NCBI RefSeq assembly: GCF_900637555.1
Contig: NZ_LR134378.1
Span: 2,986,001 to 3,050,000, forward strand
Source: Lautropia mirabilis
GTDB taxonomy: Bacteria; Pseudomonadota; Gammaproteobacteria; Burkholderiales; Burkholderiaceae_E
Length of the DNA stretch: 64,000 bases
Direction: 5' to 3'
Shown here: one piece after another, positions 29,575 through 34,405 of the stretch
How positions within the stretch are numbered: the stretch's first letter is position 1
Layout of the letters: each line of letters opens with the position of its first letter
Position numbers and translations under genes: made by a program
The notes under the pieces: generated by a model
The model's database searches: none
Told to the model about the DNA's origin: nothing
Seen by the model: the letters and a program-made list of their open reading frames with translations, nothing else

Positions 29575-30078
29575 TCAGTCAGGATTCTGCGCGTTTTCCT
29601 TCATGAAATCGATGAACGCCCGGGTTCTGGCCGGCAGCAGCCGCGTGGCCGTCAGCGCATGAACGGGCACCGTACTGCCAGCCCAGTCCGGCAGCACACG
29701 CTGCAGCCGACCTGCCTCTACGTCCTTGCGTACGCCAATTTCCGGCAGCATCTCACCCAGCCGGGTGAATTCCGTCATGTCGTGCACGGACATGTCATAG
29801 GCGGTCTGTTCCAGCGCCTTGCCGGTCATGCCCTGCGCCCGTGCATGGGCCAGGGCCTTTTCGCCCAGCCCTTCCACGCCAGCCAGACGGGACCATTCCT
29901 TGTGCACGCCGATCATGTAGGAAGAGAATAACTCGAAGCCCCTCTCGACATCACGCCCCAGATGAATCATCAGGGCAGAGGGCATGTCCGGACTGTCGGC
30001 CATGGCCGACCAGCCGCTGGCGCTGAAGGTGAAGTTCATTTTCTGCATGGTTTCGGCGCTCCCCGGCAGCATCGGCAA
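29575..30078 (-). CDS. Short protein with LysR-like C-terminus, probably chimeric or degenerate
   Basis: This is an open 167-residue reading. The last 55 residues (RKDVEAGRLQRVLPDW, then PARTRAFIDFMKE) match the end of the LysR-type effector-binding domain. The first 110 residues do not look like LysR; they include FELFSSYMIGVHKEWSRL, a helical stretch I do not recognise. There is no helix-turn-helix, so it cannot act as a LysR regulator. It may come from a deletion that fused two genes. It starts 11 bases after the binding-protein gene at 30090 and could be co-transcribed with it. Confidence 0.5.
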   Translation of the reverse strand: MPMLPGSAETMQKMNFTFSASGWSAMADSPDMPSALMIHLGRDVERGFELFSSYMIGVHKEWSRLAGVEGLGEKALAHARAQGMTGKALEQTAYDMSVHDMTEFTRLGEMLPEIGVRKDVEAGRLQRVLPDWAGSTVPVHALTATRLLPARTRAFIDFMKENAQNPD

Positions 30079-30089
30079 CCGATTTCATC

Positions 30090-31205
30090 TCATGCAGTCA
30101 GCAGTTCCCGCCGCTGTGCTGCGGAAAGCGCCTTGCCATAGAACAGCTGATAGAAACTCTGCACCATGTCATCCAGCGACGATGCCGTGCGCCAGACTAC
30201 ATGGTCAGGATGCAGCCGCTGCAGCAACCAGCGCAGCCCCATCAGGCGGTTCATTCCGGGTGGCCCGTCCAGCCAGCCAAAGGGCAGAGCGGGTGCCAGC
30301 AGGACCCGCCCCTCACGCACCGCACGGACAGATCGCCAGTCCCTGTCATGACGCACGCTGCTCGCAAAGCCGGCATCCTGGGTGAGAATCACGGCCGGAT
30401 CCCAGCGCAACAGCTGCTCCAGCGACACACGCATCAATCCACCCCGACCACTCTCGACCGCCACATTGCGGCCTCCGGCGAGCTCGATCACCTCTGCATT
30501 GATGGCGCCGATCCGCGCGGTCTCAAGGCCCGCCACGCCACGTGCCAGGTACACCCTGGGACGTTGTTCCGCTGACACGTCCCGTGTCACCTGAGCCGCC
30601 AGCCTCAGCACCTCATCGGCAAAAGCCGCCAGGCGCTCGACGCGTGCTGATTCTCCCAGTAGCGCCCCAACGGCCCGCAGCTGGCGGGCCGAATCCGCCA
30701 GCCCACCCTGCACCAGCACACAGGGCAACCCCGTCTGCCGATGCAGCCTCTCAGTCCCTGACAGGTAGGTGGCATCCACCGTACCGGAATCCAGCACCAA
30801 GTCCGGCTGCAGCTCCAGCAGAGCCTCCAGCGGCATCGTGCTGCCTCGCCCCGCCAGCCGCCCCAGGTACGGCAAATCGGCCAGTGGCTCGCCCATCCAG
30901 GCTCGGGCCTGGGCCGGCAGCTTCATGGGCCATCCCAGCAGTTTCTGTGGCGCCACGGCCGCCAGCAGCACGCCGGCCGGAGGTCCGGCCGCGAACACCC
31001 GGCGTACCTCTCCGTTCGCTGGCAGAGCGCCAAAGCGTGCCACCAGCCCATCCAGCTCGGCTGCAGCGGCAGGGGCGGCTGCGACAGTAGCGACAGCAGC
31101 ATCGGCACTCACGCCAACACCTGGCCACACGGCCAGAGCCGTCGTTTCCGCCACGCCGGCCAGCCAGCGACGGCGCCCGGCGTCGAAGCGACCATCCCGC
31201 ACCAT
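30090..31205 (-). CDS. Class III periplasmic metal-complex binding protein (TroA/FepB/MolA-like)
   Basis: This 371-residue protein belongs to the helical-backbone (TroA/BtuF/FepB) binding proteins that deliver metals or metal chelates to FecCD-type ABC importers. A twin-arginine-like RRRWLAG (residues 11-17) precedes a hydrophobic export segment. The core has LPYLGRL, LLELQPDLVLDSG and, near the C-terminus, PFGWLDGPPGMNRLMGLRWL. It is the third gene of an operon with a TonB receptor and a DUF2478 protein, 17 bases downstream of the latter. No permease or ATPase accompanies it. The ModE-like operator upstream suggests molybdate or tungstate, which is inference; iron chelate or heme remain possible. 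Confidence 0.78.
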   Translation of the reverse strand: MVRDGRFDAGRRRWLAGVAETTALAVWPGVGVSADAAVATVAAAPAAAAELDGLVARFGALPANGEVRRVFAAGPPAGVLLAAVAPQKLLGWPMKLPAQARAWMGEPLADLPYLGRLAGRGSTMPLEALLELQPDLVLDSGTVDATYLSGTERLHRQTGLPCVLVQGGLADSARQLRAVGALLGESARVERLAAFADEVLRLAAQVTRDVSAEQRPRVYLARGVAGLETARIGAINAEVIELAGGRNVAVESGRGGLMRVSLEQLLRWDPAVILTQDAGFASSVRHDRDWRSVRAVREGRVLLAPALPFGWLDGPPGMNRLMGLRWLLQRLHPDHVVWRTASSLDDMVQSFYQLFYGKALSAAQRRELLTA

Positions 31206-31222
31206 ACGCTGTATCCCGACGT

Positions 31223-31870
31223 TCAGGCCAGCGCCGGGTGCTGTCCCGGGGTCCGGACCCTATCCTCACCGGCTCCGGCATCGCCCCCCGTCTGGGGCGG
31301 TACGTCAGCTTTGGCACTGACGGGTACGGTGCCATCTGCTCCTCGCCGTGCCAGCTGGGCCCGGCACCAGGCCATCAGCGCCTCCTCGTCTGTAGGCAAT
31401 GCCACGTGCAGCCCGCCCGTGAAACGCTGCCAGCCGGACTGGTGGCGTGCAGCCACCGCCGTCAGCACCGGAATGCCGGCCTCGATGAAATCGGCAAACT
31501 CCATGACAAAGCCACCGCCCTCGGCCTCCACGCCGCCGAAGCGGTTGATCACCACCAGATCGACACCATCGGCCAGTGCCTGACGCAGCACAGCACTGGC
31601 CTCGCCCAACGCCTGCGGGTTCAGGTTGCAGGCCACCGATGCGCCCCCCAGATCCTGTGACAGCTCGAACGAGCGATCTGACCGCAGATCAAAGAGCACC
31701 ATCCGTTTGCTGCCACTGGGGTAGTCATCCACCCGGTGCACCAGACCGCCCACATGGGCGCCCTCGGCCTGCAGGCGCCTGGCCACCCGTTCCAGCACGT
31801 CCTCCATGTCATGCTCGTCATCGGCATGCTCCAGCGCTGCCAGAGGCAGATCCCCTTGCCCGTTCCCCAT
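31223..31870 (-). CDS. DUF2478 family protein
   Basis: This 215-residue protein matches the DUF2478 pattern: ARRLQAEGAHVGGLVHRV at the N-terminus, FELSQDLGGASVACNLNPQAL, DLVVINRFGGVEAEGGGF, and a final AGIPVLTAV block. From memory, the family is usually encoded beside molybdenum transport genes; its reaction is unknown, although it resembles nucleotide-binding proteins such as THEP1. About 40 low-complexity residues extend past the domain. CAGGAG lies well placed before the ATG. It sits between the TonB receptor and the binding protein. Confidence 0.82.
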   Translation of the reverse strand: MGNGQGDLPLAALEHADDEHDMEDVLERVARRLQAEGAHVGGLVHRVDDYPSGSKRMVLFDLRSDRSFELSQDLGGASVACNLNPQALGEASAVLRQALADGVDLVVINRFGGVEAEGGGFVMEFADFIEAGIPVLTAVAARHQSGWQRFTGGLHVALPTDEEALMAWCRAQLARRGADGTVPVSAKADVPPQTGGDAGAGEDRVRTPGQHPALA

Positions 31871-31985
31871 GTCCCGTTCTCCTGTGCAAACGCCGGTCCT
31901 CTACAAGTGGATTCCGGCCTGGCACCGGGGCCCGAAGGCCGACTGCCAACAGGACCATGACCGATGCCTCATGCCGGGTTCCGGC

Positions 31986-34010
31986 TCAGAACCGATACCC
32001 CACATTCAGATAATAACTGCGCCCGGGCATCGGATAACCATCCGAGAACTGATACCACTTGTCGCCCAGGTTGCTCACGCCCACATCGACATCCAGCGCA
32101 CGCGTGGCCTGGTAACGGGCAGCCAGCCCCACCACGCCGTAGCCACCCAGGGCCAGCGCCTGCCGACTGCCAGAGAACTGCACCTTGCGCCCCTGCTCGG
32201 CCTCCACGTCGGCACGCAGCGTCCAGCGCTCCTGCGGCTGCCATTGCACCCCGGCCAGCAATCGGTGTCGGGGCGTATCAGTCAGCTGGATGCTGCGATC
32301 ACTCAGATTGGTCCGATGCAGCAGCGTATATCCCAGGTTCAGCGCCCACTGCCGTTCCAGCTGCTGCACCAGCGACAGCTCCAGCCCCTGATTGCGGGTA
32401 CGCCCCACGTTCTGCTCCTGGTTGCAGGTCGTGCCGCCGCAGGACGAGGAATTCACCGTCATGGTCTGGATCTGGTCGCGCACCCGGCTGTAGAAGATGG
32501 CTGCCTGCCCCTGGGCGCCCTGCCAGAGTGCCCCCTGCACGCCCAGCTCCAGATGATGAGCCAGCTCGGGCTTCAGGTCGGGATTGGGCAGCGCCCGCCC
32601 CAACCGTGCCGAGTAGCGATCCTTGATGGTGGGAAAGCGCGTGCGCTGCGCCACCAGCACATAGGCCTCGTCACCCGATGCGCCCAGGATCTGGCCAAAG
32701 CGGATCAGCCCGTTCGTGGCATCCGTCTTGCCGGTCGGCCACTGGTAGACCTCCTTCGCATCCCGCTGGTCATGGCTCAGCTCCAGCGTCAGCCTCTGCC
32801 GGTCATTCAGTGCAATGTCATCGGCCGCCACCAGCGAAGTCGTCACGTCCCGATAGCGTCGTCCCTCGTCGTCATGCCGATCCACCTTGTAGTGTGCCGC
32901 CAGGCGCAGCGCATGCGCGGCAAACGCATGGTTTTCCCACGTCGCGCTCAGGCCAAGGCTCATGTCCTTGTAGCTGCTGGTAGGGTCATGCGCGGCGTAA
33001 CTGGCGTTGCGATACATGTCCAGCCCGTTCTTGTACGTGTCGTGGTAGAGACGCGTCTTCAGCACATTGCCTGCATCCAGCCGGGTGGATGTCAGCACAT
33101 ACACACTGTCCTTGTCCCAGTACGGCCAGCGCCAGTAGCGCGTCGCATTGCGCGCCGTGGAAGTGCCCGTATAGACCGGGTTGCCCTTCTCGCCTCGCTG
33201 GCGCACATAGCCCACGGCGTACTCGTCCGACGCATTGGGCATCAGCCCCAGCTTGAACGACAGGCGCCGGTCCTTGCGGTCGGCATTCGACCGATATTTG
33301 CCAGTATCGGTGGGTTGACGCTTGAAATCCTTGAACCCCTTGGGCAGCCGGAAATGATCGGACTCCAGCAGCGAGGCACCCACCTGGTAATACCAGAGGT
33401 CCTGCTTGCCTCCCAGGTTCAGCGCCGCCTTGCGTCCTCCTCCAGTGGCCAGCCCCAGGCGCACATCGCCTTCGAAGGGCTGCGTCGGCCGGCGCGTCAC
33501 CAGGTTGACCGCACCACCCAGCGTGTTGGGGCCGTACAGCAGAGAAGCACCTGCCTTGGCCACACTCACTTGTGCCAGATCGAAGGCCGTGAAGCGGTCG
33601 AAGTCCGCATAGCCGTCATAAGGCACATACAACGGGATGCCGTCCACGTACACCGGCACCTGTCGGGAATCGAAGCCGCGCACGTTCAGCATCGTCTCGT
33701 TGCGGCCGTTCACCGTCAGGCTCACCCCCGGCAGATGGCGTACCGCGTCCGACACCGTATCGACCCGGGCAGCTGTCAGCAAGCTTCCGCCCAGCTTCAG
33801 CACATCCGGCTGCACAGGTGCACGTGCCCTCACCTCGACAGTGCCCAGCTCGAATACGCCAGGCTCCTCGCCCGAAGCCGGGGAAGACTGCTGGGCCGCT
33901 GCGGTCGAAACGGCCAGAGCCCCGAGCACCAGCATCATGAGCCTGCTGCGGTACAGGCAGGGCAAGGAATGTGAAGACGAAGCCATCAATGCAGCAGCCG
34001 AAACGTCCAT
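31986..34010 (-). CDS. TonB-dependent outer membrane receptor (candidate metal-oxyanion uptake)
   Basis: This 674-residue TonB receptor has a signal peptide (LMMLVLGALAVSTAAAQ, about residues 24-40). A plug domain follows with TVEVRAR, GVSLTVNGRNETMLNVRGFDSRQVPVYVDG and GASLLYGPNTLGGAVNLVTRRP, then a 22-strand-type barrel ending in LNVGYRF with a terminal Phe. A loop near residue 480 contains a short Cys pair (SSCGGTTCN). GGGGAG precedes the ATG at good spacing. It heads the operon with DUF2478 and a binding protein. The ligand is not visible from sequence, but the context and the ModE-like site suggest molybdate, tungstate or a chelate. Confidence 0.88.
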   Translation of the reverse strand: MDVSAAALMASSSHSLPCLYRSRLMMLVLGALAVSTAAAQQSSPASGEEPGVFELGTVEVRARAPVQPDVLKLGGSLLTAARVDTVSDAVRHLPGVSLTVNGRNETMLNVRGFDSRQVPVYVDGIPLYVPYDGYADFDRFTAFDLAQVSVAKAGASLLYGPNTLGGAVNLVTRRPTQPFEGDVRLGLATGGGRKAALNLGGKQDLWYYQVGASLLESDHFRLPKGFKDFKRQPTDTGKYRSNADRKDRRLSFKLGLMPNASDEYAVGYVRQRGEKGNPVYTGTSTARNATRYWRWPYWDKDSVYVLTSTRLDAGNVLKTRLYHDTYKNGLDMYRNASYAAHDPTSSYKDMSLGLSATWENHAFAAHALRLAAHYKVDRHDDEGRRYRDVTTSLVAADDIALNDRQRLTLELSHDQRDAKEVYQWPTGKTDATNGLIRFGQILGASGDEAYVLVAQRTRFPTIKDRYSARLGRALPNPDLKPELAHHLELGVQGALWQGAQGQAAIFYSRVRDQIQTMTVNSSSCGGTTCNQEQNVGRTRNQGLELSLVQQLERQWALNLGYTLLHRTNLSDRSIQLTDTPRHRLLAGVQWQPQERWTLRADVEAEQGRKVQFSGSRQALALGGYGVVGLAARYQATRALDVDVGVSNLGDKWYQFSDGYPMPGRSYYLNVGYRF

Positions 34011-34056
34011 GAACGGTCTCCCCTACAAGGAGCTGGAATGTCACACGGTCCAAAGC

Positions 34057-34102
34057 CGTTATATAACCATGTAATAACGACTGAAAACACGATCTGGGTC
34101 AA
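34057..34102 (-). promoter_or_regulatory. ModE-like operator with adjoining -35 element
   Basis: An inverted repeat CGTTAT-11 bases-ATAACG lies at 34057-34079, 47 bases upstream of the TonB receptor start. The E. coli modA operator, as I recall it, has the same CGTTAT and ATAACG arms with 12 bases between. A minus-strand TTGACC (34102-34097) abuts it, so the repeat covers where the -10 would be (GTTATT or TATTAC at 18-20 base spacing). Repression by metal-bound ModE would fit this geometry. Confidence 0.55.
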
Positions 34103-34405
34103 GACTCAGGGAGCCTTGTCACGCAAACAGCGTCATGTCAGCCCCCCTGATCACATGAAAGCCCCTGGAAAAGGAGCAGGTTTCAGACTGGCGATGCAAC
34201 CTGCCATCCACACGCGGCCGCACCATATACAGAAACCGAATGTCTTTCCCCGAAAGCCTTCGTTCCTGCACACCGGGGGTTTCCTTATCTTTGGATCCAG
34301 TTCGCAGGGTCCATCCGGACGCAGATGACATCAGGCTCGTTCTCAGGAAGAACACATGCCAGTACCCGGAAAGACCCGTTCAGCCCCTTTCTTTCCGCGT
34401 GCACG
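34103..34405. other. Intergenic stretch upstream of cysJ
   Basis: No gene is apparent in these 300 bases between the divergent TonB receptor and cysJ. They contain a hairpin with a 7-base stem (GCAGGTT at 34176-34182 with AACCTGC at 34198-34204) and a looser CCCCG/CGGGG pairing near 34245-34288. I find no convincing promoter or riboswitch for cysJ. A 78-codon minus-strand reading from 34355 has no recognisable features. Confidence 0.4.

Follow-up and report, generated by a model that had tools for sequence, protein, structure and literature searches.

Porins are the generally assumed route of molybdate across the outer membrane, and class III binding proteins, the type to which MolA belongs, also serve siderophores, haem and B12. 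Among the closest described systems is MolABC of Haemophilus influenzae (HI1470-1472), in which a class III binding protein is combined with a FecCD-type permease and an ATPase for molybdate/tungstate. MolABC is a low-affinity molybdate system (PMC4031551), and its MolA binds bare molybdate at only ~100 µM (PMC3928620), an affinity that would be poor for scavenging the bare oxyanion. The ModE consensus of the E. coli type, CGNTATATA-N6-TATATANCG, extends over 24 bp (PMC545781). Molybdophores, for their part, are known as compounds, for instance from Azotobacter (PMC3440940).

Here we consider an operon in a stretch of 64,000 nucleotides from Lautropia mirabilis (the window), which a first-pass annotation had singled out as a candidate TonB-dependent molybdate/tungstate uptake operon under a ModE-like operator. 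We find it very probable that the operon is a ModE-controlled, TonB-dependent molybdenum/tungsten scavenging system; no binding, transcription or uptake data are available. The proposal is based on the gene content, the conservation of the operator, the presence of ModE and MolBC in the genome, and a linkage to molybdenum genes that crosses phyla. The parts are known; what appears to be new is their combination to form a route for molybdenum across the outer membrane.

The operon and its putative operator

The features of the locus are as follows.

31986-34010, minus strand: TonB-dependent outer-membrane receptor, 674 aa, with a plug (PF07715) and a barrel (PF00593)
31223-31870, minus strand: DUF2478 protein, 215 aa, predicted to be cytoplasmic (PF10649)
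30090-31205, minus strand: MolA-like class III periplasmic binding protein, 371 aa (PF01497)
34057-34079, no strand: putative ModE-type operator CGTTATATAACCATGTAATAACG, 23 bp, an exact inverted repeat CGTTAT-N11-ATAACG
29575-30078, minus strand: small ORF in which a fragment of a DAPG hydrolase is fused to a fragment of a LysR substrate domain (partial matches to PF18089 and PF03466)

The three genes form a compact minus-strand operon, with only 17 bp between the DUF2478 gene and that of the binding protein, and the ORFs are those that had been claimed. As also claimed, no permease or ATPase is found locally; both are encoded elsewhere in the genome. Directly downstream of the window molA, where relatives have molBC, stands the fused ORF 29575-30078, which is possibly a deletion scar and lies outside the system.

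The identity of the binding protein as MolA-like rests on PF01497 and on a profile search of the PDB, in which H. influenzae MolA (HI_1472) is matched at 3e-28 and BtuF at 6e-15. MolA is thus the nearest structure with a characterised ligand; 4pag (2e-80) and 4ovk are closer still, and we know of no ligand assigned to either. The protein is 33-59% identical to the binding proteins of related receptor operons. The AF2 model of the receptor (pLDDT 87.5) has TonB receptors as its fold neighbours, with OprC the best match and PfeA and BtuB also present. Since BtuB and BtuF are among the partial NCBIfam matches, one might suppose a BtuB-BtuF-like operon for cobalamin/corrinoid uptake. With the BtuB model, however, only 110 bits are reached where the cut-off is 599.7, and with that of BtuF 27.8 where it is 234; MolA stands above BtuF in the profile search; the subfamily is linked to ModE, as described below; and no cobalamin riboswitch was found near the operon. 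With both models under their cut-offs and no riboswitch, we rejected the cobalamin reading, which retains hardly any credibility.

The DUF2478 assignment is secure, with 168.8 bits for PF10649 against a gathering cut-off of 22.3. The family is rare: of the 399 genomes searched in the order, 14 have a match above the cut-off, L. mirabilis included. It has reportedly been named in a paper on Methanoperedens plasmids. Its AF2 model (pLDDT 87.5) matches THEP1/NTPCR nucleoside triphosphatases (Z 14.3 and 13.6) far above any other fold, the THEP1 match extending over 154 residues at 12% identity. Invariant residues exist among the 29 DUF2478 members compared, and the Walker A motif (GKT/S) is absent from all 29. 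Because of this absence and the low identity to THEP1/NTPCR, NTPase activity is not expected; we interpret the model as a P-loop-like fold that has probably lost nucleotide hydrolysis.

The inverted repeat at 34057-34079, located 47-69 bp upstream of the first ATG of the receptor gene, is exact, as had been noted. Its overlap with a promoter, which had also been suggested, remains unconfirmed, as a sigma-70 scan of positions 33950-34400 gave no promoter. Taken by itself the repeat is weak and unspecific evidence. With up to two mismatches, 0.29 matches per window are expected by chance, and exact copies of CGTTAT-N8-14-ATAACG occur three times in the 3.17-Mb genome, where the other two sit in apparently coding DNA, one within narX and one apparently within another gene. 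The weight of the window repeat therefore comes from its conservation and context. Compared with the E. coli ModE consensus, it has 13 of 16 matches and three mismatches, and its spacing gives a length of 23 bp instead of 24 bp, both of which count against the ModE reading. A matrix built from sites of other species scores it at 26.8; the best unexplained sequence in ~184 kb reaches 12.8. We propose that 34057-34079 looks like a ModE-type operator; no ModE-binding data exist.

ModE and predicted ModE-type sites in the genome

The absence of ModE from the genome would have refuted the original suggestion. A ModE is in fact encoded at 1.072 Mb, with a TIGR00637 domain over the cut-off and two Mop/TOBE domains, and its surroundings at 1.07 Mb consist of narGHJI, narXL, modE, a 168-aa gene and modCBA. 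The 168-aa protein, between modC and modE (L017:11473-11979), has no NCBIfam match; a relative of it precedes a ModE/Mop gene in genome G235 (L037:13883). At 1.076 Mb, a gene for a BtuB-like TonB receptor (L017:14396-16360) is divergent from modA, and the two share the intergenic region that contains the modA ModE-type site. This receptor is a candidate for a third molybdenum-linked receptor, or else a cobalamin receptor placed there by chance; its molybdenum link is not conserved in the loci compared.

Genome-wide, only two 24-mers (N6 spacing) have at most one mismatch to the consensus: one is upstream of modA, and the other precedes molB, at 437 kb, by 31 bp. The 23-mers (N5 spacing) with up to three mismatches number four in 3.17 Mb: one is the window site, and the other three precede molybdoenzyme operons, namely fdnG, which encodes formate dehydrogenase-N, torC-torD-torA, and the gene of a TorA-like reductase that carries a Tat-type signal. 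All six of the best sites in the genome, the window site among them, are placed ahead of molybdenum genes, and for this reason the 23-bp form of the operator can be regarded as normal in this genome. The six score 26-32 with the matrix, the site inside narX 19.7, and the best other sequence as given above; part of the ~184 kb scored had been chosen for its sites. Two weaker N6 sites with three mismatches, located at 240 and at 250 kb, lack a molybdenum-gene explanation of their own. Away from the three molybdenum-linked loci, the genome has 13 further TonB receptors, whose ModE scores are 10 or less. Two of the molybdoenzyme genes show peculiarities: that for the formate dehydrogenase-N alpha subunit (L139:7847-10987, 1.324 Mb), whose ModE-type 23-mer lies ~0.4 kb upstream, appears as two ORFs, with a stop codon close to where selenocysteine would be expected, and a TorA/BisC-like reductase gene (L138:6479-9214, 0.25 Mb), with its 23-mer ~0.2 kb upstream, is broken by one in-frame stop.

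ModE-type sites are also found ahead of molybdoenzyme operons, so that control by ModE is not enough to identify the ligand. The operon could import a molybdoenzyme substrate or some compound linked to molybdenum status, such as a pterin or a redox cofactor, rather than the metal itself, and the 23-bp spacing of the window operator is indeed that of the molybdoenzyme operons and not the 24-bp spacing of modA and molBC. Against this, MolA and MolBC, joined in Comamonadaceae by a TupA-like oxyanion-binding protein, share one operon in relatives, and we give the substrate or cofactor proposal very little chance of being correct. It is nonetheless conceivable that the 23-bp spacing class, common to the window and to the molybdoenzyme operons, might reflect a different mode of action of ModE.

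It had been suspected that, without a local permease and ATPase, the system would either borrow them or be incomplete. A molBC pair encoded in trans, with a ModE-type operator of its own, offers an answer, in which the pairing is inferred. It belongs to an operon molB-molC-TonB2-SBP2 at ~431.5-437.1 kb (L128:4499-10062), ~0.6 Mb from the window on the circular map. In a two-strand search, MolB (435-437 kb, with MolC adjoining) has 77% identity over 310 aa to the operonic MolB of Oryzisolibacter (L091). The ModE-type operator CGCTATATACTGTCTGATATAACG is directly upstream of molB, and molBC is followed by a second TonB receptor (TonB2, 752 aa, of the siderophore-receptor type) and then by a second class III binding protein (SBP2), both of which are apparently also under ModE. 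A second Lautropia genome (G009) lacks the window receptor and keeps the molBC-TonB2-SBP2 operon, 64-70% identical and with a perfect 16/16 operator, CGTTATATAAAAAATTATATAACG. It appears that what relatives encode in a single operon has been split in Lautropia.

Relatives of the receptor and their neighbourhoods

When 84,980 genomes were scanned for the receptor alone, with its neighbours disregarded, 80 loci were obtained. The plug and barrel domains (PF07715 and PF00593) are both present in all 42 family members scanned, the motifs RYWRWPYWDKDS and VPYDGY are conserved in the subfamily, and a conserved VFxLGxVxV segment is visible close to the N terminus of the mature protein. Comparison of the neighbourhoods, which had been suggested for TonB-DUF2478 pairs, supports the molybdenum connection: 70 of the 80 receptor loci have MolA, MolBC, DUF2478, ModE, ModABC or NarG no more than 8 kb away, and 59 have DUF2478, ModE, ModABC or NarG within that distance. 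The full TonB-DUF2478-MolA-MolB-MolC set is found in 32 loci; operons of this composition turn up repeatedly in Burkholderiales, Xanthomonadales and Pseudomonas, frequently accompanied by modE or modABC. The linkage between receptor and molybdenum genes reaches these three groups and Desulfuromonadia, and Mucilaginibacter through an adjacent ModE-type gene. Within Lautropia the receptor is found in only two of the nine genomes sampled, which counts against the proposal, and no plasmid copy was found in PLSDB at E 1e-100. In one of these relatives, Lautropia dentalis, no DUF2478 match is present between the receptor and MolA (L055:11928-12300), and a stop codon falls within a low-complexity stretch in the N-terminal region of MolA.

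DUF2478, like the receptor subfamily, has a strong link to molybdenum genes. Several DUF2478 loci contain TonB-MolA, mostly with MolBC too, and others adjoin nitrate reductase or formate dehydrogenase genes; the rest have no obvious molybdenum neighbour. Many Comamonadaceae operons have an additional gene between the receptor and DUF2478, whose product resembles the tungstate-binding protein TupA, for which a solved structure is available (3lr1, 5e-12). This TupA-like gene (L048, L053, L118 and others, in a receptor-DUF2478 interval of ~900 bp) is not recognised by Pfam or NCBIfam, and a search of the L. mirabilis genome gave no match to it.

ModE-type sites are also conserved ahead of the orthologous operons, and their absence there would have refuted the original suggestion. 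Of 84 receptor genes, 44 have an upstream site with a score of at least 13/16, a level reached by no dinucleotide shuffle out of 1,680 and by ~0.6% of control windows; when clusters at 70% identity are counted once each, 19 of 34 have such a site. Examples are CGCTATATATTGTTTTATATAGCG (G235, 16/16), CGTTATATAAGTCGATATATAACG (Pandoraea) and CGTTATATAACCTCGAACATAACG (L. dentalis). The operator in Comamonas has the 23-bp form of the window operator, and other relatives have perfect 24-mers. Counting against the ModE interpretation, the Xanthomonadaceae members with an adjacent ModE have no good ModE-type site.

This conservation also bears on the possibility that the operon takes up a siderophore, that is, imports a ferric complex, the ModE-like repeat being a coincidence or a Fur site. 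FecCD-type permeases usually do serve siderophores, haem or B12, and the window receptor reaches 148 bits with TIGR01783, the general model for siderophore receptors. This score is, however, below the cut-off of 223.5; no Fur box stands out ahead of the window operon, and in the subfamily as a whole the upstream Fur scores are the same as in control windows, whereas another receptor of the same genome shows a Fur-like site (16/19); and what is conserved is the ModE-type sites and the molybdenum neighbours. We rejected the siderophore reading on the TIGR01783 score and the background Fur score, and we consider iron uptake very unlikely. On induction by iron or cobalamin limitation, which would have spoken against the original suggestion, the lack of a Fur box and of a cobalamin riboswitch gives only an indirect answer.

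A broader proposal is that the TonB-driven import of Mo/W chelates (molybdophores) under ModE is the dedicated function of a whole receptor subfamily, which extends from Betaproteobacteria to Desulfuromonadia and Bacteroidota. We put this forward tentatively, as it could well be right and could slightly more easily be wrong. No report of a ModE-linked or ModE-regulated TonB receptor was found in 5.39 million open-access papers, subscription papers and databases such as RegPrecise being outside the scope of the search.

Proposed uptake route and comparison with known systems

The preferred reading, molybdenum/tungsten scavenging under ModE, suggests the following pathway. When molybdate is scarce, ModE would leave the operator at 34057-34079 and the operon would be expressed; this direction of regulation is inferred. 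The receptor, energised by TonB-ExbBD, would let a molybdenum or tungsten species into the periplasm, where the MolA-like protein would bind it and hand it to MolBC (435-437 kb), a partnership between distantly encoded proteins that is likewise an inference. Alternatively, molybdate might be released to ModABC. DUF2478 is probably a cytoplasmic accessory in molybdenum handling, and perhaps handles the imported metal; its exact role, too, is inferred.

What is the ligand of this system? There are no ligand data, the question is not settled by sequence, and any identification is by inference. A chelate is slightly more likely than the bare oxyanion, because the transporter type serves large complexes, because H. 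influenzae MolA binds bare molybdate weakly (~100 µM, PMC3928620), and because a small oxyanion can use porins. Two points favour the bare oxyanion, namely the TupA-like protein in the same operon in Comamonadaceae and the fact that OprC, a copper receptor, is the closest fold.

If the broader proposal on the receptor subfamily is true, this would be a molybdenum counterpart of Fur-controlled siderophore uptake, and some genomes, such as that of Lautropia, would field two or three receptors for different chelates. A ModE-linked receptor subfamily would show that some bacteria spend energy on the entry of molybdenum, as it is for iron and B12. Molybdophores would gain an uptake route that can be tested genetically, and DUF2478 a physiological context. 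In addition, the weak binding of bare molybdate by H. influenzae MolA could be explained, since the natural ligand may be a complex.

Each component of the system has a described relative, from which it differs in one or more respects. The window receptor has the same plug and barrel architecture as OprC (copper), BtuB and PfeA (siderophore); it is only ~16% identical to them, has distinct invariant motifs, and is linked to ModE rather than to Fur or riboswitches. DUF2478 has its fold in common with THEP1/NTPCR, but not the Walker A motif, and little of the sequence. The tungstate-binding TupA proteins have a counterpart inside the orthologous operons of Comamonadaceae, whereas none is present in the window. 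As in the ModE-regulated modABC of the E. coli type, this genome has a ModE with a pair of TOBE domains and 24-bp sites of the type CGNTATATA-N6-TATATANCG; here, however, the predicted regulon takes in TonB receptors, and some of the predicted operators are 23 bp long. Finally, H. influenzae MolABC, which was thought to act at high external molybdate, has neither a dedicated outer-membrane receptor nor a DUF2478 protein described in the open-access accounts of it, and in L. mirabilis, unlike in that system, the binding protein and MolBC are encoded in separate loci, each marked by a ModE-type operator.
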